A DNA stretch of 64,000 nucleotides, taken from assembly GCF_007830055.1 (NCBI RefSeq), contig NZ_VLLE01000007.1:186001-250000 (forward strand). Direction: 5' to 3'. A program made the position numbers and the translations under genes. Under the pieces are notes generated by a model that saw only the letters and a program-made list of their open reading frames with translations, did no database searches and had not been told where the DNA came from. How positions within the stretch are numbered: the first letter of the stretch is position 1; every line of letters begins with the position of its first letter. The DNA comes from Lacibacter cauensis (GTDB lineage Bacteria > Bacteroidota > Bacteroidia > Chitinophagales > Chitinophagaceae). Shown here piece after piece: positions 1,680-56,135 of the stretch.

Positions 1680-1703
1680 GGGCGTCGAAGGACGCCCTTT
1701 TTC
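1680..1703 (+). terminator. Rho-independent terminator
   Basis: Perfect 7-bp stem GGGCGTC / GACGCCC with a GAAG loop (1680-1697) followed by a T run. It ends the serine hydrolase-lipoprotein operon and lies directly before the palindromic site at 1702, so the next gene has its own promoter. Confidence 0.85.
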
Positions 1704-1748
1704 ACATACTTATGTGATAGGTGTAAACATTATCCGGACTTACTTTTA
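1702..1748 (+). promoter_or_regulatory. Palindromic operator TCACAT-N4-ATGTGA plus -7 box
   Basis: Perfect 16-bp palindrome TCACATACTTATGTGA at 1702-1717, then exactly 23 bp, then TACTTTTA at 1741-1748, one mismatch from the Bacteroidota -7 consensus TAnnTTTG. No good TTG -33 element is present. The palindrome centre is about -43 relative to the inferred start, the position of a class II activator. Same arrangement at 3756, 5181 and 5300. Confidence 0.6.
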
Positions 1749-1752
1749 AACC

Positions 1753-3198
1753 ATGAAACCTGTCATCTTTTTACTCGCATTCAGCGTACAGCAATTGTAT
1801 GCCCAAATTACTACGCAGCAGCAATTACAAATCGATAGCCTGTTGCAGCAGTTCACAACTACCAAACAGTTTTCGGGCACAGTGCTCGTTGCAAAAAACA
1901 ACAATATTCTTTACAGCAAAGCGATTGGTCTTGCCAGCAAAGAATCGGCCGTACCGAATAAGCTTGAAACCAATTTCAACATTGCATCGATGGGTAAAAC
2001 CTTTACTGCTACCTTGATTATGCAGTTGGTGCAGGAAGGAAAGTTGTCGTTGAACCAGAAATTGTCGTCTATTCTTCCTGAGTTTGCTATTAAACGGGCC
2101 GATAGTATTACGGTGTACCAGTTGCTCACCCATACATCGGGAGTTGGTAACTACATGATGCATGTTAACTACGAAGCCGAGCGGCATCAGTTAAAATCGT
2201 TGAACGATGTAATGCCGTATGTTGTGGCGATGGAACCCACAACGGGCTATCCGGGCGAAAAATTCGATTACTCCAATTCAGGGTTTATCATTCTCGGGAA
2301 AATTGTGGAGAAACTTACCGGCAAATCGTACAACGAAAACCTGGAAGAACGCATTTTTTCAAAAACAGGAATGAAGCAATCCTACATTCATTATCCTGCA
2401 ACGTTTGTATCGCCCAAAGAAGCTACACCCTATCTTGCTTACACCGAAAAAACATTTGTAAACGGAACAGCTGATGAGTTTCCGGGTTTTTCTGATGGAG
2501 GCATGCAGTCGAACGTGGTTGATTTGTACAGATTTGCCAAAGGCTTATTAAACGGAAAGCTGTTGAATACTGCTATGCGTGATAGTATGTGGAGCGGTAA
2601 AGTTAAGTTCGGCAGAGGCGGCATGTACAGTTTTGGATGGATGGATAATGAAAACGAATTCGGCAAGCATATTTACAGTCATGATGGTGGTGGCAAGGGA
2701 TTCTCTTCCGATCTGCGCATAGTAAAGGAAGATGGGTATGTGGTTGTTGTGCTGATCAACAACCGGGTGAATCCTCGTGATGTATCGGGTAACATCCTGC
2801 GTATTTTATACAACAAGGAAGCAGAGAAACCCATTAAGTACCTGGAAAATGTATTGATGGAAATTACCGAGCAAAAGGGATTTGAGTACGTGTGCAGTAA
2901 TTACAAGCAGATACTGAAAGAGCAGGGTATGGATAAAACACCTAACCCCTGGATCTATATTATGTTTTCGGATATGTTTGAAAACATGAAAGAGATTGAT
3001 AAAGCATTTAAAGTAATGGAGATGGGCAGAGAGGAATTTCCAAATGAAGCATCGATGTACAATGTAACAGGGCAGCTCTATGTTAATCAGAAAAAATACA
3101 AAGAGTCAGTTGAGTGGTTTAATAAAGCACTTGCTATTAATGCAAACGATGAGTTTGCGAAAATGATGTTGCAGAGTATCAGCAGTAAATTAAAGTAA
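1753..3198 (+). CDS. Secreted serine hydrolase (beta-lactamase fold) with C-terminal TPR region
   Basis: 481 residues. A signal peptide (about residues 1-18, cleavage after LYA-Q) sends it to the periplasm or surface. The beta-lactamase-fold domain spans about residues 30-350: SMGK (S79, K82) is the SxxK nucleophile/base motif, LLTHTSG follows, YSNSG near residue 173 is the second motif and SHDGGG near 310 the third. The last 100 residues form helical TPR-like repeats (for example EASMYNVTGQLYVNQKKYKE), a tail often seen on Bacteroidota homologues. The start is the first ATG, 5 bp after the -7 box, implying a very short leader. It is followed 18 bp later by the RibD-like reductase. Substrate is unknown: esterase, D-aminopeptidase or peptidoglycan activity are all possible. 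Confidence 0.9.
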   Translation: MKPVIFLLAFSVQQLYAQITTQQQLQIDSLLQQFTTTKQFSGTVLVAKNNNILYSKAIGLASKESAVPNKLETNFNIASMGKTFTATLIMQLVQEGKLSLNQKLSSILPEFAIKRADSITVYQLLTHTSGVGNYMMHVNYEAERHQLKSLNDVMPYVVAMEPTTGYPGEKFDYSNSGFIILGKIVEKLTGKSYNENLEERIFSKTGMKQSYIHYPATFVSPKEATPYLAYTEKTFVNGTADEFPGFSDGGMQSNVVDLYRFAKGLLNGKLLNTAMRDSMWSGKVKFGRGGMYSFGWMDNENEFGKHIYSHDGGGKGFSSDLRIVKEDGYVVVVLINNRVNPRDVSGNILRILYNKEAEKPIKYLENVLMEITEQKGFEYVCSNYKQILKEQGMDKTPNPWIYIMFSDMFENMKEIDKAFKVMEMGREEFPNEASMYNVTGQLYVNQKKYKESVEWFNKALAINANDEFAKMMLQSISSKLK

Positions 3199-3216
3199 GC
3201 AAATCAGCAAAATTCA

Positions 3217-3747
3217 ATGAAACGGAAAGCAGTTGTTTTTATTGCAGCAAGTATTGATGGATTTATAGCAACAACCGATGGTGATCTCAGTTTTTTATCG
3301 GCTGTGGAAAAGGAAGGAGAGGATTACGGATATGCCGCATTTATTTCTGCAGTGGATACGGTGGTGCTTGGTAAAAAGACCTACGATAAAGTAATAGCGA
3401 TGGGCTATCCTTTTCCACATGCCGATAAAGAAGCGTACATTATAACAAGAACTTCAAAAGAAGCAGTTGGCTCGGCACAGTTTTATACAGGCGATGTTGT
3501 TGAACTGGTGAAGCAATTAAAGCAACAGGAAGGCCGTACCATTTTTGTTGATGGCGGTGCTTACGTTGTGAACCGTTTACTGCAGGCAGGACTGATTGAT
3601 GAACTGTATGTGTCGATTATTCCTGTTTTACTTGGCAGCGGTATTGCTTTGTTCGAACAGCACTATGCAATGCAGAAAATGAAATTGCTGCAGGCAAAGT
3701 CGTTCGATACCGGATTGGTACAACTGCATTACAAGGTACAACAGTAG
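3217..3747 (+). CDS. Dihydrofolate reductase / RibD C-terminal family protein
   Basis: 176 residues, cytoplasmic, full length for the stand-alone RibD_C-like reductases (170-190 aa). The N-terminal strand and loop, FIAASIDGFIATTDGDL, is the family's substrate/NADPH region; TVVLGKKTYDKV corresponds to the conserved GRKTYE block and IFVDGGAYVVNRLLQAGLIDELYVSIIPVLLGSGI to the C-terminal GG.xxx..L...LIDE signature. Members reduce a pteridine- or pyrimidine-like ring with NADPH, but stand-alone members in Bacteroidota mostly have no proven substrate and are not the folate-pathway DHFR. It lies 18 bp after the serine hydrolase and so shares the promoter at 1702; the pairing does not suggest an obvious shared pathway. 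Confidence 0.88.
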   Translation: MKRKAVVFIAASIDGFIATTDGDLSFLSAVEKEGEDYGYAAFISAVDTVVLGKKTYDKVIAMGYPFPHADKEAYIITRTSKEAVGSAQFYTGDVVELVKQLKQQEGRTIFVDGGAYVVNRLLQAGLIDELYVSIIPVLLGSGIALFEQHYAMQKMKLLQAKSFDTGLVQLHYKVQQ

Positions 3748-3755
3748 TGCTTTTT

Positions 3756-3802
3756 TCACATGTTCATGTGAGAAAGCCCGCAGCTGAACCAGCGTACATT
3801 TG
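3756..3802 (+). promoter_or_regulatory. Palindromic operator TCACAT-N4-ATGTGA plus -7 box
   Basis: Perfect palindrome TCACATGTTCATGTGA at 3756-3771, 23 bp, then a perfect TAnnTTTG box, TACATTTG, at 3795-3802. The start codon of the S41 peptidase is at 3816. Spacing is identical to the sites at 1702, 5181 and 5300. Confidence 0.65.
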
Positions 3803-3815
3803 AGAAAAGGAACGT

Positions 3816-5117
3816 ATGAAACAGTTTGTCAACCTTATCATCTTTTGTTTTGTTCTGCTTTCTTCTGCACGTGCACAATTAACTACACAGCAAAAAAATG
3901 AGGCGGTAGATAGTGTAGTAAAACTGATGAACGAACGCTACACTTTTCCTGAAACAGCGAAAAAGATTGAACAGTTTTTACGCAACCAGCAGTCTGCAAA
4001 TGCGTACGATACTATTAACGATGGTAACAGCTTTGCAGCAAAACTTACGGCCGATATACGCAGTATTTGTAGTGATAAGCATGTTAATATCCGTTACTCA
4101 GCAGAAGCTTTGCCGGTAAGCCGAGGAAATATTCTGCAGATTTCAGAAGAAGAAAAGAAAGGCTATGCTGAGTTTTTGCGGCTTGAGAATTATGGCGTAA
4201 CCAAACTGGAAGTACTAAAGGGAAATATCGGCTACATCGATTTTAAATTTTTGTGTGGTACAGAATATGCCGGTGATTTTTATGCAGCCATGATGAATTA
4301 TGTGCAGCATACCGATGCGCTCATTATCGATTTCAGGAAGTGTGGTGGTGCCATGAGCGACAATGTTATTCCTTTTCTCTGTAGTTATTTCTTTGCAGAT
4401 AAAACACATCTCAACGATCTCTATTGGCGTGAGGGAAATTTTACACAGCAAACATGGACGCAGGTGGTCGTTCCCGGAAAAAAATACCTCAACAAGCCGG
4501 TATATATTTTAACCAGCAACAGAACATTTTCCGGTGCAGAAGAAATGGCTTACGATTTGAAGAACCTGAAGCGTGCAACCATCATTGGCGAAGTAACCGG
4601 TGGTGGTGCCAACCCCGGCGGTTCTGTAAATGTTACCGAACACTTCAGTATGTTTCTGCCGGTTGGCCGGGCAATTAATCCTATTACAAAAACAAACTGG
4701 GAAGGAGTAGGCGTGCAGCCGGATACAGTGATCAAATCCCGACTGGCTTTGCACAAAGCACAGCTGCTGGCGATGCAATATGGTTTGCAAACAACAACCA
4801 ATAATTTTTGGAAGGATGAATTGAAACGCCTGATCGCAGAACATGAAACACAAGCACCGCAGTTGACGAAAGTAACGTTCCGGGTAAAAGGATATGTAAC
4901 AGCAAAGCATATAGCAGTTGCCGGTGGATTTAACGATTGGTCAACTACTGCTGCTACAATGAAACGTACAGGTAACGAGTGGGTAGTTGAAACCGAAGCT
5001 GAACCAGGCAAACACCTCTATAAGTTTGTTGTAGATGGCGAATGGATTCTTGATCCGGCAAACAAACAAAAAGCTTGGGAAAACGGGTATGAAAATTCGG
5101 TGGTTGTTGTAAAATAA
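3816..5117 (+). CDS. Secreted S41-family peptidase with C-terminal CBM48/AMPK-like module
   Basis: 433 residues with a signal peptide (about 1-21, ending ARA-Q). The middle is a tail-specific-protease (S41/TSPc) domain: NIGYIDFKFL opens the core, ALIIDFRKCGG is a conserved strand, and SNRTFSGAEEMAYDL (near residues 230-245) holds the nucleophile serine, followed by ATIIGEVTGGGANPGG. No PDZ domain is visible, as in the short retinoid-binding-like S41 members. The last 80 residues (about 350-433) form a separate E-set module with VAGGFNDWS and LYKFVVDGEWILDP, the glycogen-binding CBM48/AMPK-beta fold; the same module occurs four times in the protein at 44683. The fusion suggests binding of a glucan or glycoprotein near the peptidase, but this is inference. 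It is transcribed alone from the palindrome-associated promoter at 3756. Confidence 0.88.
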   Translation: MKQFVNLIIFCFVLLSSARAQLTTQQKNEAVDSVVKLMNERYTFPETAKKIEQFLRNQQSANAYDTINDGNSFAAKLTADIRSICSDKHVNIRYSAEALPVSRGNILQISEEEKKGYAEFLRLENYGVTKLEVLKGNIGYIDFKFLCGTEYAGDFYAAMMNYVQHTDALIIDFRKCGGAMSDNVIPFLCSYFFADKTHLNDLYWREGNFTQQTWTQVVVPGKKYLNKPVYILTSNRTFSGAEEMAYDLKNLKRATIIGEVTGGGANPGGSVNVTEHFSMFLPVGRAINPITKTNWEGVGVQPDTVIKSRLALHKAQLLAMQYGLQTTTNNFWKDELKRLIAEHETQAPQLTKVTFRVKGYVTAKHIAVAGGFNDWSTTAATMKRTGNEWVVETEAEPGKHLYKFVVDGEWILDPANKQKAWENGYENSVVVVK

Positions 5118-5180
5118 TTGGAAGGTGTTGTAACATTCCAATCGTAGTTACGTACAGTTAGTGTAACAATAAAAAATGAT

Positions 5181-5227
5181 TCACATGTTTATGCGGTTGA
5201 AAATGCAGGTAAAAAGAAACAGCTTTG
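5181..5227 (+). promoter_or_regulatory. Imperfect copy of the TCACAT palindrome, distal promoter
   Basis: TCACATGTTTATGCGG at 5181-5196 (second half degenerate), then 23 bp, then CAGCTTTG at 5220-5227, which keeps the nnTTTG part of the -7 box. A TTG follows the palindrome directly (5197-5199). With the copy at 5300 it forms a tandem pair before the lipoprotein gene at 5379. Confidence 0.45.
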
Positions 5228-5299
5228 TCTCGTCATAATTAGTAGAAATCAACGTTGCTAACCAAACACCAAACCTGCATTGTTCAACCATCTTTAAGT

Positions 5300-5346
5300 T
5301 CACATATTTATGTGGTTGCAACCTGCAGAGCAACGAATGAAATTTG
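5300..5346 (+). promoter_or_regulatory. Imperfect copy of the TCACAT palindrome, proximal promoter
   Basis: TCACATATTTATGTGG at 5300-5315 (one mismatch in the second half), a TTG at 5316-5318, 23 bp of spacing, then GAAATTTG at 5339-5346. The ATG at 5310 lies inside the palindrome, which is why the downstream ATG at 5379 is preferred as the gene start. Confidence 0.5.
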
Positions 5347-5378
5347 CGAACCTTATCATCATCATTAAACCTTATAGT

Positions 5379-6164
5379 ATGAAATTCAGCCTTGCTAAAG
5401 CAGTAGGTCTGCTTGTGCTAATCGTTAGTACGTCTTCTTTTTTCAGTTCCTGTAAAAAACCAACATCCGAACCTGCTCCGGTTACAAAAATCAAATCTGT
5501 TTTTTCGCCCGAAGATGAACTCACTTTTGAATACAACAACAATGGTTCAGTAAAAACAGTACAATTAAAAAACAGTTTTGTTACATCGGGCGACTTAGTA
5601 AACTATGCCGTGCATTATAACGCACAGGGAAAAATAACAGAAATTGTTTCGGATGAAGATATCCGCATTGTGCCTGTTTATGCCGAAGGAAAGTTAAAAG
5701 AAGCTTCTTTTGAAACACTGGATGGTACACTTTTATTGCAGACAGATTATGCGTACCTCGACGAACGTTTAAAAACAGTAACGATTACAACCGCAGCAGG
5801 TCAGCCATGGATGCGTTTTGGATTTGATTATACTACTGAAGGGAATATTGCAAAGACTTCTTTCTTCGGACAGGATCCTTTCAATCCCGATCAGTTTATG
5901 TCGAGTGGTACTGTTACGTATACCTACGATACAAAAATTAATCCGTTGAATGAAGTGCGGGACATCTTACACTTGTTGTGGCTGCCTGTAAATCCAAATA
6001 ATACTTTAAGCGAAGTGCATAAAGACAGAGATGGTTTATTGGAAGAAACGGTAAACTACAGCTATCAGTATCATTCCAATAAAACGCCGAAATCTGCAGT
6101 AATGCAATCAACAGTTCCCGGCCAGGCCACTGAAAACATTAATTTATTTTTTGCTTATTTCTAA
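5379..6164 (+). CDS. Surface lipoprotein of unknown function, paralogue of 870-1646
   Basis: 261 residues from the ATG at 5379. The upstream in-frame ATG at 5310 would place the start inside the regulatory palindrome and put the signal sequence 23 residues inside, so it is rejected. The N-terminus is a lipoprotein signal with lipobox FSSC. The body repeats short Tyr-rich strands (LTFEYNNNGSVKTV, VHYNAQGKITEI, DYAYLDERLKTV), the same pattern as the lipoprotein at 870, with which it shares length and architecture. It is a single-gene unit with two tandem palindrome-linked promoters upstream and a terminator 29 bp downstream. Function unknown; co-regulation with the S41 peptidase and serine hydrolase suggests a shared cell-surface role. 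Confidence 0.75.
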   Translation: MKFSLAKAVGLLVLIVSTSSFFSSCKKPTSEPAPVTKIKSVFSPEDELTFEYNNNGSVKTVQLKNSFVTSGDLVNYAVHYNAQGKITEIVSDEDIRIVPVYAEGKLKEASFETLDGTLLLQTDYAYLDERLKTVTITTAAGQPWMRFGFDYTTEGNIAKTSFFGQDPFNPDQFMSSGTVTYTYDTKINPLNEVRDILHLLWLPVNPNNTLSEVHKDRDGLLEETVNYSYQYHSNKTPKSAVMQSTVPGQATENINLFFAYF

Positions 6165-12413: not shown

Positions 12414-14399
12414 ATGAAACGTTTTAAAACACTACTGCTTCTGTCAATACCATTGCTTGCCCTGCAGATTACAGGATGTAAACCAAAAGGTGCAGGTGGT
12501 GCTGCCGCAACGGGTAATGCTGCAAAAGCATATGTAGCTCCCGGTAAATACGATGAGTTTTACAATTTTGTAAGTGGCGGTTTCAGCGGACAAATGAGCG
12601 TGTATGGTTTGCCCAGCGGCCGCTTGTTCCGTGTAATTCCTGTATTTTCTGTTGATCCTGAAAAAGGATGGGGCTACAGCGAAGAAACAAAGCCCATGTT
12701 AATGACCTCTAATGGTTTTGTTCCGTGGGATGATCTGCACCATATTTCTTTCTCACAAACAAACGGCGAAATTGATGGCCGTTGGACATTTGGTAATGCC
12801 AACAACACACCTCGTGTTGCACGTATCGATAACAAAACATTCCGCACTGCAGAAATTATCGAATTACCAAACAGTGCAGGCAATCACTCTTCACCATTTA
12901 TTACAGAAAATTCGGAGTATCTCGTAGCCGGTACACGTTTCAGCGTACCTATTGGCGATAACCAGGATGTACCTATTGCATCGTATAAACAAAACTTCAA
13001 AGGCACCATCAGCTTTGTAAGCATTGGTAAAGAAGGTGAACTGGATATTGCATTCCAGTTACTGCTTCCCGGTGTAAACTTCGATCTCAGCCGTGCAGGT
13101 AAAGGTCCAAGCCACGGTTGGTTCTTCTTTAGTTGCTATAACAGTGAACAGGCAAACACGTTACTCGAAGTAAATGCTTCGCAGCGTGATAAAGATTTTA
13201 TCCTTGCTGTTAACTGGAAAAAAGCAGAAGAATACCTGAAAGCAGGTAAAGGTGTAAAACAACAGGTGCGTTATGCGCATAACAAGTGGGATGAAAAAAC
13301 ACATACTGCAAAACATGAGATCAGAACAGAAGTAACGGTATTGGATCCTGCTATTCTGAAAGATATCTGCTACTTTATTCCTTGTCCGAAATCACCTCAT
13401 GGTTGCGATACCGATCCTACAGGCGAATATATTGTTGGTAGCGGTAAACTGGCTGCTGTAATTCCTGTATTCTCTTTCACAAAAATTCAAAAAGCAATTG
13501 CTGATAAAAAGTATGATGGCGATTTTGGCGGTATTCCTGTAATTAACTACGAAGCTGCTTTACATGGCGAAGTACAAAAACCAGGTCTCGGACCATTACA
13601 CACAGAATTTGATGCAAACGGTAATGCCTACACTTCATTCTTTGTAAGCAGTGAAATTGTAAAATGGAATGTAAAGAGTTTGAAAGTGCTGGATCGTGTA
13701 CCTACTTACTATTCAATTGGTCACTTATCAATTCCCGGTGGCGATACTCGTAAGCCTTGGGGTAAATATGTTGTAGCGTACAACAAAATTACCAAAGACC
13801 GTTACCTGCCTACAGGTCCTGAGTTAACACAAAGTGCACAGATCTACGATATCAGTGGCGATAAGATGGAGTTGATCCTCGACTTCCCGACTATTGGTGA
13901 ACCACACTATGCCGGTTCAATGCCTGCATCGTTAATTAAAGACAAGAGTCAGAAAATTTACAAGATTGATGAGAACAACCACCCTTATGTAACAAAAGGC
14001 GAGAAGGAAGCAAAAGTGGTACGTGAAGGAAACAAGATACATGTGTACATGACATCGATCCGTTCGCACTTTGCACCAGATAATATCGAAGGTGTAAAAC
14101 TTGGTGATGAAGTATACTTCCATGTAACCAATCTCGAACAGGATTGGGATGTACCGCATGGCTTTGCCGTAAAAGGTGCATTGAATGCTGAGTTGCTGAT
14201 TATGCCGGGAGAAACATCAACACTGAAATGGGTTCCTGAAAAAGCAGGGGTATATCCCATTTACTGTACAGACTTCTGTAGTGCGTTGCACCAGGAAATG
14301 CAGGGTTATGTTCGTGTATCACCTGCAGGAAGCAATGTGCCGCTTACATTCAGTTTAGGTAAGCAGGGTGCACCAGAAGCAGAAGCTGCAAAAAAATAA
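12414..14399 (+). CDS. nosZ: Nitrous oxide reductase, clade II
   Basis: 661 residues. NosZ reduces N2O to N2 with two electrons, the last step of denitrification, in the periplasm. The seven CuZ histidine ligands can be picked out at about H109, H110, H158, H329, H396, H437 and H498, each in its usual context (DLHHISFS, AGNHSSPF, SPHGCDT, LHTEFD, GHLSIPGG, GEPHYAG). The C-terminal cupredoxin domain has CuA ligands H582, C618, C622, H626 and M629 in CTDFCSALHQEM. The position between the cysteines is Asp rather than the Trp of clade I enzymes, and the signal is Sec/lipoprotein-like (ITGC, Cys at 22) with no twin arginine; both mark clade II. All copper ligands are intact, so the enzyme is expected to be active. 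Confidence 0.97.
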   Translation: MKRFKTLLLLSIPLLALQITGCKPKGAGGAAATGNAAKAYVAPGKYDEFYNFVSGGFSGQMSVYGLPSGRLFRVIPVFSVDPEKGWGYSEETKPMLMTSNGFVPWDDLHHISFSQTNGEIDGRWTFGNANNTPRVARIDNKTFRTAEIIELPNSAGNHSSPFITENSEYLVAGTRFSVPIGDNQDVPIASYKQNFKGTISFVSIGKEGELDIAFQLLLPGVNFDLSRAGKGPSHGWFFFSCYNSEQANTLLEVNASQRDKDFILAVNWKKAEEYLKAGKGVKQQVRYAHNKWDEKTHTAKHEIRTEVTVLDPAILKDICYFIPCPKSPHGCDTDPTGEYIVGSGKLAAVIPVFSFTKIQKAIADKKYDGDFGGIPVINYEAALHGEVQKPGLGPLHTEFDANGNAYTSFFVSSEIVKWNVKSLKVLDRVPTYYSIGHLSIPGGDTRKPWGKYVVAYNKITKDRYLPTGPELTQSAQIYDISGDKMELILDFPTIGEPHYAGSMPASLIKDKSQKIYKIDENNHPYVTKGEKEAKVVREGNKIHVYMTSIRSHFAPDNIEGVKLGDEVYFHVTNLEQDWDVPHGFAVKGALNAELLIMPGETSTLKWVPEKAGVYPIYCTDFCSALHQEMQGYVRVSPAGSNVPLTFSLGKQGAPEAEAAKK

Positions 14400-52841: not shown

Positions 52842-55800
52842 ATGAAGAGCACACTCAAGTGTATCCTTTGTTTGCTGCTTACTGTAAGTGTACAGCAATT
52901 AGTAGCGCAGATCGTACCCGTTAAGTCGCCCGACTCAAGACCCATTTTACTCAAAGGCGTTGAGTTGTACGAAAAAGGATCGTATAAAGAAGCAGCGAAA
53001 GAATTCGGCAGCATACACCGTAACGATACCAGTTACCTATTGTCCTTGTACGAAAAAGCATTGGCGTTACAGCAGGACTCGTCGTACGATGATGCATTGG
53101 CAACCATCAACCTTGCGTTGACAGGTATGCATACCGAAAGTATCCACGATTATCTTGTTTTAAAAGCTAACATCCTCGACGATATGGGTAAATCGCAGGA
53201 AGCATTGCTGTTGTACGATTCAGCTTTGAAACTGTTCCCTGCATCGCAAACCATCCGTTCGCAAAAAGTAACGGCACTGGTTCGGTTAAAGCGTTATGAT
53301 GAAGCTGAAGCATTAGCAAGAGAATGTGTGGTGATGAATTTTCTCAATCCCCTGCATCACTACAAAATGGGTGTAGTGGCCTACCAACAGGGTAAAATTG
53401 TTCCAACGCTGATGGCCATGATGATGGCGCAGATCGTTAATCCATCACATGGCAATGTGAACAGGGTTGTTACCTACCTCAGCAGCATCTGTAATGCAAA
53501 AGATGAAACACTCGAAGCGCAACAGCGACGCACAGGCGACAACTATCCCGATAACTTCAGCAAGGTAGAACAAATCATTTTTTCAAAAATTGCTTTCGAT
53601 AAAGGGTATAAAGTAAAATTCAACCTCGATGATAATATTTTCAAACAGATCAATGTAATGCTGGAGAAACTGGAGTTCGATGAGGCGAGTGATGATGCGT
53701 ACATGCAGCTGTATGTGCCATACTTTAAGCAGCTGTATACTGATAAAAAGGTTGAGGTGATGCTCAATCATGCGTTCAGCGGATTAACAATCGATGCCAT
53801 TGCTTCTTACATGAAAAAGAATAAATCCGAAGTGTCGGCTTTTACAAAAGAAGCATTCAGCTATGTTGACCTGGTGCGGAGTACAAGAGTAGTACAGTAC
53901 AAGGAAAGGCAAACAGCAGAACGCCTGTATCATTTTGATGAAAACCGTTTTTATGCAGAAGGAAAAATGGTAGGAGAGGGTGGCGAAGGTTATTGGAAAT
54001 TCTATTTTCCTGATGGCTACCTGAAAGCGGAAGGTGAACTTTTGAATAATGAACGCAACGGCATCTGGAAGTTTTACCACGAAACCGGTAAACTGCAAAG
54101 TGTTGAGCAATTTAACAAAGGTGTTTCCGATGGCCCGGTAACAGTTTATTACTCAAACGGCGCATTGAAAAGAACGATAGCATACAAAGACGGTAAGGCG
54201 GAAGGCGTTGTAAAAAATTACAGCTTGTATGGTGTGGTAACCAGCGAAGAAAATTATGTAAATAATGAGATGGATGGAAAACAGACATATTATTACAATG
54301 ATGGCACCATCAAATCTCAATTTCAGTACAAAGCCGGGAAAGCAAATGGTGCGTATGTAATGTATTATGGTAACAAAACCATTAAAGAGCAGGGCGCTTA
54401 TAACGAAGATGAATTGGATGGTGAAATTAAAGTGTTCTTTACCGATGGGAAACTGAAAGCCGCATACCAGTATAGTAAAGGGAAAACAACAGGCACCTGG
54501 AGTTATTTTCATAGAAACGGCAAGCTCGATTACAAAGTAGAAATGACAGAAAAAGGAGCGCAGGGCGAAGTGCTGCATTACGATGATAAAGGCCAGCTTT
54601 CATCAAAGGAAAGTTTTAAAGATGGCATCAACGTAGGTATCAGCGAGTATTACCATAAAGGCAAACCGTATGTGTATTACAAAAGCAGTGCAAAAGGAAA
54701 AACCAATGAAATACGTTATGTGGATTCGCTTGGTAACGAAAAGCTGTTGAATAAGCGTTCGGGAAAAATATGGTCGGTTGCGTATTACAGCCCTTACGGT
54801 TATAAAACAAGTGACAAACAATTTAACCAGGACGAAGAGCTTACGAATGAAGCTGTTTATTATAACACACAGGGTTTGCCTGTTTTAAAAGAACTGTATA
54901 AAGATGGTGCACTTGAAGGCAATGTGCAATCCTGGTATTACAATAAAAATAGTAAAGACGAGACAGAGTATGTTGCGGGAAAGAAAACAGGTGTTTCCAA
55001 AACATATTTTGCCAATGGAAACCTATCTAGTGTTTCATTCTATGATGAAGATGTGTTGGTCGATTACCAATACGAATACAGCATGAAAGGAACGTTACTG
55101 AGTAAATACTTTTTTGCTGCTGGTGAAAAAACAGGTTATGGCATCAGTAATTATGCCGATGGTAAACCCTTTTATGAAGAACGCTACCTCAATGGTTGGC
55201 TTATTGAAGTAACACAATTTGATGAAACAGGTAAGCGTATGACTCCGATCCGTTTCGAAAACGGCAAAGGCATTTACAAGTTGGTTTACCCCAATGGCAA
55301 ATCCTATTACGAATTACCATTGGTAAATGGCGTGTGGGAAGGAATGCAGAAATCGTATTACCCGGATGGAAAACTCATGAATGAGGTGATGTTTAAAAAC
55401 GATGAAAAGAATGGTGTTGCAAAGTATTATCACACCAATGGTAAATTGAGCATGGAAGGAGCTTATCTGTACGATTTAAAAACGGGCGTATGGAAGTCGT
55501 ACAATGAAAACGGTGTACTGGAATACGAAGAGTATTATGTAGATGGGTTGCAGCACGGCAAATCGAAATATTATGATAATGGTAAGTTACAGCGTGAAAT
55601 CGATTATGAAGAAGGTAACAGAAGCGGTACTTCCAGGTATTTTGAAGAGACAGGCGGAACGGCATTTGAAATTTATTATGAAGATGGATTAATCACTGCC
55701 TATGCTTACCCGGATCGTTCAAAGAAAATGCAGAAGCCGATACCGCTTCCGAATTTCACCGGAACAATTGAAGCTTTTTACAGCAATGGGAACAAAGCGG

Positions 55801-56135
55801 CGTTTATTGAAGTTGCGGCAGGTGTATATCATGGTAAATTCAGGTTGTACAACGAAAAGGGAGTACTTGCTTACGAATCAACCGACGAATATGGGTATAC
55901 GAATGGTGCAGTCAAGTCGTTTTATGATAACGGAAAATTGAAAATGGAATACACACAGGTGTACGACTTAACAGATGGCGTATTCAAAGAGTATTATCCC
56001 GATGGGAAAATACAAACAGAAGCAACCTACGACATGGGCAATCCACACGGTACATACAAAGCCTACGACCCAACCGGTAAGTTGCTTGAAACACGTGTGT
56101 ATTACCAAGGCTATATCAGAGAAATAAAAAAATAA
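52842..56135 (+). CDS. Large secreted TPR and YwqK/MORN-like repeat protein
   Basis: 1097 residues. A signal peptide (about 1-22) leads to a TPR-rich region (about residues 30-200; LYEKGSYKEAAKEFGSIHRND, LYEKALALQQDSSYDDALATI, ANILDDMGKSQEALLLYD). From about residue 370 to the end the chain is a long array of roughly 25-30 YwqK-type repeats of about 23 residues: a turn such as YFPDGYLKAEGEL, a loop ERNGIWKFYHETGKLQ, and so on (YYNDGTIKSQFQYKAGKANG, YYPDGKLMNEVMFKND). These are MORN_2-like hairpins forming a beta-solenoid. No catalytic motif is visible. It is the first gene of a unit with two DUF3857-transglutaminase proteins (gap of 4 bp), suggesting a shared extracellular function. Confidence 0.87.
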   Translation: MKSTLKCILCLLLTVSVQQLVAQIVPVKSPDSRPILLKGVELYEKGSYKEAAKEFGSIHRNDTSYLLSLYEKALALQQDSSYDDALATINLALTGMHTESIHDYLVLKANILDDMGKSQEALLLYDSALKLFPASQTIRSQKVTALVRLKRYDEAEALARECVVMNFLNPLHHYKMGVVAYQQGKIVPTLMAMMMAQIVNPSHGNVNRVVTYLSSICNAKDETLEAQQRRTGDNYPDNFSKVEQIIFSKIAFDKGYKVKFNLDDNIFKQINVMLEKLEFDEASDDAYMQLYVPYFKQLYTDKKVEVMLNHAFSGLTIDAIASYMKKNKSEVSAFTKEAFSYVDLVRSTRVVQYKERQTAERLYHFDENRFYAEGKMVGEGGEGYWKFYFPDGYLKAEGELLNNERNGIWKFYHETGKLQSVEQFNKGVSDGPVTVYYSNGALKRTIAYKDGKAEGVVKNYSLYGVVTSEENYVNNEMDGKQTYYYNDGTIKSQFQYKAGKANGAYVMYYGNKTIKEQGAYNEDELDGEIKVFFTDGKLKAAYQYSKGKTTGTWSYFHRNGKLDYKVEMTEKGAQGEVLHYDDKGQLSSKESFKDGINVGISEYYHKGKPYVYYKSSAKGKTNEIRYVDSLGNEKLLNKRSGKIWSVAYYSPYGYKTSDKQFNQDEELTNEAVYYNTQGLPVLKELYKDGALEGNVQSWYYNKNSKDETEYVAGKKTGVSKTYFANGNLSSVSFYDEDVLVDYQYEYSMKGTLLSKYFFAAGEKTGYGISNYADGKPFYEERYLNGWLIEVTQFDETGKRMTPIRFENGKGIYKLVYPNGKSYYELPLVNGVWEGMQKSYYPDGKLMNEVMFKNDEKNGVAKYYHTNGKLSMEGAYLYDLKTGVWKSYNENGVLEYEEYYVDGLQHGKSKYYDNGKLQREIDYEEGNRSGTSRYFEETGGTAFEIYYEDGLITAYAYPDRSKKMQKPIPLPNFTGTIEAFYSNGNKAAFIEVAAGVYHGKFRLYNEKGVLAYESTDEYGYTNGAVKSFYDNGKLKMEYTQVYDLTDGVFKEYYPDGKIQTEATYDMGNPHGTYKAYDPTGKLLETRVYYQGYIREIKK

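Follow-up and report, generated by a model that had tools for sequence, protein, structure and literature searches.

Four copies of a 16-bp palindrome in a 64,000-nucleotide stretch of the Lacibacter cauensis genome (the window; C6:186001-250000 of a 4.95-Mb genome in 10 contigs) are very probably operators of a two-component system encoded just outside that stretch. Each copy has the form TCACAT-N4-ATGYGR and stands upstream of a -7-like promoter box, with a spacer of 23 bp in all four. Sequence comparison points to a NarL/LuxR-type response regulator (RR; G000:C6:182728-183360), partner of the histidine kinase at C6:178478-181543, as the protein that would bind them, and the operators would thereby belong to a class-II-like, autoregulated regulon.

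All four sites and their boxes, first described in an earlier note, were recovered where it had placed them, with the 23-bp spacer in each (Table 1). With as many as three mismatches allowed, the palindrome by itself shows no enrichment (18 matches in the window against 37 expected), so the signal rests on stringency and spacing. When one mismatch is tolerated, the composite TCACATNNNNATGYGR-N27-TTTR occurs five times in the window, the four exact matches being the four sites; 100 shuffles of the window gave a mean of 0.06 and never five. The earlier note had spoken of four unrelated promoters. Their sites and spacing are borne out, but the sites at 5181 and 5300 lie in tandem and both precede the lipoprotein gene at 5379-6164, so that probably three transcription units are controlled rather than four. 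A similar tandem pair stands before a relative of this lipoprotein in genome G001 (L071, 16377 and 16495), and operator 1 has counterparts with 23-bp spacing at related genes in loci L072 and L076.

Across the genome, TCACATNNNNATGTGR is found at seven places (control pattern, 0) and the strict composite occurs eight times against none for its control, so the motif is not a common one. Beyond the window and its immediate flank, a site whose box lies 23 bp away was seen upstream of a head-GIN DUF2807 protein (C4:101143), a TM2-domain protein (C2:1027422; G001 has one that is nearly identical) and a lipoprotein-like gene (C1:984810). Several other matches were set aside. The perfect palindrome at window position 53445 lies within an ORF (open reading frame; 52842-56135) with AGCATCTG at the box position and looks like chance; those at C2:574950 and C3:556030 have no fitting box at 22-23 bp; and C1:1227802, which fits the composite, is probably fortuitous, the longest ORF just downstream having 30 amino acids (aa).

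Just left of the window, locus L028 (C6:170001-187000) holds five further sites, each 22-23 bp from a -7-type box, in a region picked up with an extended motif (+12664, +13455 with box TATCTTCA, +14962, -8364 and -7683). The RR gene lies in this cluster, 2.6 kb from the window, with the kinase gene two genes upstream of it, and its own promoter contains the site at 12664, placed 63 bases before the ATG and 22 bp from the box TACTTTTG. The protein consists of a receiver followed by a LuxR-type helix-turn-helix (HTH) domain (Response_reg, 7.3e-24; GerE, 1.2e-18). Of the solved chains, NarL (1a04) matches it best, and VraR and DesR are among the closest; its phosphorylatable Asp aligns with the LLDLNMPG stretch of NarL, and D53, T81 and K103 (numbered without the Met; one more with it) are invariant in 10 sequences. 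It scores below the NCBIfam cut-off for the NarL equivalog (150.8 bits versus 250). Where the earlier note had posited one unknown regulator, the idea of a single regulator is supported, but it is no longer unknown, since a NarL-type RR with a site in its own promoter lies beside the window.

Across nine other loci, from eight relative genomes, identity to the RR ranges from 98 to 65%, the kinase being less conserved (90-37%). For a broader sample, we took the loci of the best 80 of 504 RR relatives (RR identity 72-90%), which include Sediminibacterium (Chitinophagia), Arenibacter (Flavobacteriia), Algoriphagus (Cytophagia) and Maribellus (Bacteroidia); one of the 80, L083, is from genus member G010. 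A palindrome with at most three mismatches of 12, followed by TAnnTTT[GA] at an allowed distance of 22, 23 or 24 bp, precedes the RR in 68/80, with the box at 23 bp in 61, at 22 bp in 7 and at 24 bp in none. At up to two mismatches 60/80 still qualify, and at up to one, 40/80. Two-mer-block shuffles gave 0/4000, and other ORF starts in the same loci gave 18/1094, several of which may be true targets (among 17 such matches listed, 12 are no more than 3 kb downstream of the RR gene and one is an alternative RR start). When the box is not demanded, 486 sites with one mismatch or fewer were counted in the 80 loci, palindromic sites on both strands, versus 20 for the reversed motif; the offset from these sites to a box peaks sharply at 23 (80 sites, against 6 at 22), with a second peak at 37-40 (49). 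Both the sites and their spacing, which the earlier note had proposed to check in relatives, are therefore kept in loci of four classes.

The position of the sites suggests how they might act. In Flavobacterium johnsoniae, the -7 box spans -12 to -5, probable transcription starts fall 4-5 bases past the box and the -33 element is weak, according to passages of PMC6847099; an excerpt of PMC9723704 gives the same limits for the box. Applied to the four window promoters, this Flavobacterium rule predicts a palindrome centre of -43.5 in each, just upstream of where the -33 element would be, and the class-II-like position claimed in the earlier note is supported. We examined 109 sites with 23-bp spacing, pre-selected at up to two palindrome mismatches with T-T-G not imposed: the bases directly after the palindrome are T in 97%, T in 83% and G in 76%, and the full TTG is present in 72/109. 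The operator thus adjoins the -33/-35 region at a fixed 22-23 bp from TAnnTTT[GA], a class II feature, kinase promoters excepted. The suggestion that a perfect palindrome compensates for the lack of a -33 TTG was not supported, the mean number of mismatches being 1.31 with TTG (72 sites) and 1.35 without it (37 sites).

An RR that binds these sites could also repress, its dimer blocking polymerase at -33, and the fixed spacing would then reflect overlap with the -33 element. The palindrome does abut a -33 TTG at most sites, and NarL represses frdA and activates elsewhere (PMC4549865, in part). Nevertheless, we consider repression unlikely: the 22-23-bp spacing is found across many promoters whose spacer sequence is free, as contact with polymerase would require; the promoters at 1702 and 3756 keep it with no TTG at -33; and NarL uses 7-2-7 sites to activate napF (-40/-49) and yeaR (-38/-47), as described in the same portion of PMC4549865. 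Because of this precedent and the predicted centre at -43.5, we take the RR to be a class-II-like activator.

Site number tracks the presence of the RR. Seven genomes of the genus with an RR of at least 90% identity have 8, 4, 10, 4, 10, 5 and 9 strict composites (controls 0, 0, 0, 0, 1, 0 and 1), versus 1, 0, 0, 1, 1, 0 and 2 in the seven without it (controls 0, 0, 0, 0, 0, 1 and 2; Mann-Whitney p 0.001), where every match has two mismatches. At family level (147 genomes), strict composites average 5.8 in the 13 genomes whose RR is at least 65% identical and 0.7 in the 134 without one (controls, 0.3 and 0.5). A looser composite with one mismatch separates the genus members poorly, RR-less G009 and G012 having 13 and 14 matches.

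Several observations weigh against assigning the sites to this RR or against a uniform architecture. Genomes G066 and G159, from one genus, have exact sites and no RR at E <= 1e-60; in G159 a site at 24 bp precedes a 39%-identical RR with another helix (L200), and the two contigs of G066 that were examined gave no RR or kinase match. Conversely, G113 has an RR of 63% identity and no strict composite, although a 23-bp site precedes that RR (L164). Of 395 genomes sampled from the phylum, four gave the RR (E <= 1e-85), which points to a patchy distribution, with the proviso that about seven candidates per genome were scored and some may have been missed. Twelve of the 80 RR promoters (L085, L117, L125, L129, L136, L137, L148, L149, L155, L159, L161 and L162) fall short through a different box or a weaker site. 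Finally, the site of the kinase gene itself lies 37-40 bp from its -7 box and not 23, so class II does not fit every site. At up to two mismatches, 58 such sites in 57/90 loci precede an ORF of more than 850 aa, taken as the kinase though not each verified; those listed mostly read TCACAT-N4-ATGTGG followed by TTTT and represent a second promoter architecture (L028:8399, L071:8416, L076:12610 and others).

A kinase relative lies within 4.5 kb of the RR in 72/80 loci; some of the eight others are on short stretches. Five loci with no kinase relative beside the RR (L094, L101, L103, L107 and L160, three of them labelled Sediminibacterium) do have a kinase-type site (39 bp from the box) upstream of the RR gene, at about 9.7-9.8 kb in the locus, a pattern that resembles loss of the kinase gene with retention of its promoter.

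The operator also appears to change together with the protein. A 16-bp inverted repeat, the predicted site of an RR dimer, is kept at the RR gene and changes with HTH clade. NarL V189 contacts bases, and we sorted 128 RRs read from the loci by the residue aligned to it, counting upstream motifs where at least 100 bp was available; these sequences are related, and the counts are not independent. TACAT-N4-ATGTAG precedes 5/6 RRs with Phe and 0/99 with Ser, whereas exact ACAT-N4-ATGYG precedes 0/6 with Phe and 67/99 with Ser. All five Phe RRs with the TACAT palindrome have the box at 22-23 bp; a seventh Phe RR, L174, was left out because a contig end cuts its upstream region. By eye, 7/9 TVRTHIK RRs have a CACCTGAT-NAGGGTA-like element upstream (L173, L175, L176, L185, L186, L188 and L191; the other two being L166 and L167), possibly another operator class of these paralogues. 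A one-residue specificity code is too simple: L171 has Phe with another helix and no TACAT palindrome, L164 has Thr and still carries TCACATAAATATGTTA, and several Ser RRs whose helices otherwise differ (L170, L187 and L193, for example) have no CACAT site. We offer, tentatively and with doubt slightly outweighing belief, a broader proposal: many NarL-type regulators of Bacteroidota may carry their own operator in their own promoter near -43.5, so that the DNA specificity of a great many uncharacterised regulators could be read from genomes, with recognition-helix residues including the NarL V189 position setting the code (Ser, CACAT; Phe, TACAT; Thr clade, CACCTGAT-like).

These patterns bear on whether another protein could own the sites. 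A different regulator, encoded elsewhere, might control both the RR gene and the targets; binding by the RR is deduced from sequence, and G066 has exact sites with no close RR detected. Because site number follows RR presence in the genus and family and the operator shifts with RR clade, we regard this as quite improbable. Somewhat less probable still is ownership by the Crp/Fnr-like protein at L028:13678-14256, which would bind the palindrome at the class II position. Crp/Fnr proteins do act from similar positions, and the gene is in the cluster, downstream of the site at L028:13455. The sites, however, do not travel with it: tblastn detects a Crp-like relative in 7/80 loci, as against a site before the RR in 68/80, and the relative adjoins the RR only in L083, lying elsewhere roughly 5 kb or more away (25-57% identity); the G017 and G015 stretches have no such relative, yet the RR there is still preceded by the site. 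A chance origin, or the spread of a short repeat along with paralogous genes, could be read into the unenriched palindrome at three mismatches and into the paralogy of some neighbouring genes, but in our reading it is already refuted by the composite counts in window and genome and by conservation of the RR promoter in loci of other classes.

With the RR as owner of the operators, an extracytoplasmic signal would be sensed by the propeller domain of the kinase, which would phosphorylate the RR at Asp54. An RR dimer would then bind the 16-bp palindrome directly upstream of the -33 element, centred at -43.5, and activate TAnnTTTG-type promoters in class II fashion. Its own gene would be among those activated, together with local and dispersed genes for mostly exported proteins.

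The earlier suggestion of one regulator for a set of secreted hydrolases and lipoproteins is supported. Clustering of the ORFs downstream of sites gave 246 distinct ones, some spurious, with groups named from one or two scanned members. Recurring groups are the RR itself (74 loci), DUF2807 proteins (17), cytochrome-c-like lipoproteins (15), extracytoplasmic function (ECF) sigma factors (11, the nine listed coming from Algoriphagus and like genera), beta-helix proteins (9), the window lipoprotein family (7), S41 peptidases (5, namely the window, L071, L072 and two of Maribellus, with another S41 group in 8) and the window hydrolase family (4, including Yeosuana). Signal-peptide-like starts prevail among them by eye. 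Relatives of the S41 peptidase are preceded by a site in L071, L072 and Maribellus L089 and L095.

Within the window, the -7 box of the hydrolase gene ends 4 bases 5' of the ATG (1741-1755), which predicts a leaderless mRNA; in related genes of L072, L073 and L076, the ATG likewise lies 3-4 bases past the box. The reductase gene at 3217-3747 is probably co-transcribed with the hydrolase gene from the 1702 promoter, since a gap of only 18 bp separates the two. The left-hand cluster also encodes a hydrolase of the beta-lactamase fold that runs into the window, where its C-terminal part forms the first ORF.

Table 1. Operators, promoter boxes and genes in the window and in the two-component locus to its left.
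Feature	Position	Strand	Basis or remark
Operator 1, TCACATACTTATGTGA, perfect palindrome	1702..1717	+	sequence search
-7 box TACTTTTA of operator 1	1741..1748	+	transcription start predicted at 1753, the A of ATG, by the PMC6847099 rule
Operator 2, TCACATGTTCATGTGA, perfect palindrome	3756..3771	+	sequence search
-7 box TACATTTG of operator 2	3795..3802	+	
Operator 3, TCACATGTTTATGCGG, TTG directly after	5181..5196	+	sequence search
-7-like box CAGCTTTG of operator 3, without first T of TAnnTTTG	5220..5227	+	
Operator 4, TCACATATTTATGTGG, TTG directly after	5300..5315	+	sequence search
-7-like box GAAATTTG of operator 4, without first T of TAnnTTTG	5339..5346	+	
Serine hydrolase (Pfam Beta-lactamase) with TPR, target gene	1753..3198	+	ORF and Pfam
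RibD_C/dihydrofolate-reductase-like gene, no site of its own	3217..3747	+	ORF and Pfam
S41 peptidase with AMPK1_CBM-like C-terminal domain, target gene	3816..5117	+	ORF and Pfam
Lipoprotein without Pfam match, target of tandem operators 3 and 4	5379..6164	+	ORF
Histidine kinase, Reg_prop, Y_Y_Y, HisKA_3 and HATPase	L028:8478-11543 = C6:178478-181543		Pfam
Acyltransferase	L028:11549-12658		between kinase and RR
NarL/LuxR-type RR, receiver and GerE	L028:12728-13360 = G000:C6:182728-183360		Pfam
Crp/Fnr-like cNMP_binding protein	L028:13678-14256		Pfam
DinB-like protein	L028:14329-14919		
Protein without Pfam match	L028:15029-15619		

Further features accompany some of these sites. An inverted repeat, GGGCGTC-GAAG-GACGCCC followed by T5 (window 1680-1702), is terminator-like and adjoins operator 1. 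A stretch like AACCTTATCATC just 5' or 3' of the ATG is common to several targets (L028, L029 and window 5340-5380). Within L028:13455-13640, the site CACACAGTTATGCGATTG precedes a predicted 32-aa ORF at 13536 (MNDLMW...) and recurs in its own cluster and in four genus relatives.

A literature search, with preprints and many subscription papers outside its coverage, returned no recognisable description of this two-component system; its kind, an autoregulated NarL-type two-component regulon, is known. Our analysis connects a two-component system, present in loci of Chitinophagia, Cytophagia, Flavobacteriia and Bacteroidia, with an operator, a type of promoter architecture and a regulon. Its targets suggest export as the common theme (S41 peptidases, beta-lactamase-fold hydrolases, head-GIN DUF2807 proteins and a cytochrome c), with an ECF sigma factor added at some loci. 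Most promising is that operator and recognition helix vary jointly: because operator and regulator co-vary among paralogues, the family is suited to working out a recognition code.

Among known systems, the Bacteroides hybrid two-component systems have Reg_prop/Y_Y_Y sensors and AraC output. The present system shares the periplasmic sensor domains Reg_prop and Y_Y_Y but has a separate kinase and regulator, the latter with a LuxR-type HTH, whereas the hybrids join kinase and regulator in one protein (PMC11253607, in part). The predicted position resembles activation beside the -35 element by LuxR, VraR and DesR, from a palindrome centred near -42 to -44, where the LuxR operator lies. Closest of all is NarL of Escherichia coli, which likewise combines a receiver with a LuxR-type HTH; its operator is a 16-bp inverted repeat (7-2-7), as is proposed here, and, in the part of PMC4549865 consulted, it activates from sites near -44 (napF, -40/-49), a position that is predicted here. 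The differences lie in the operator (an engineered NarL site, given in that part of PMC4549865, is TACCCCTAAAGGGGTA, as against CACAT-N4-ATGTG), in the Bacteroidota type of promoter and in a partner kinase that senses through a Reg_prop propeller.

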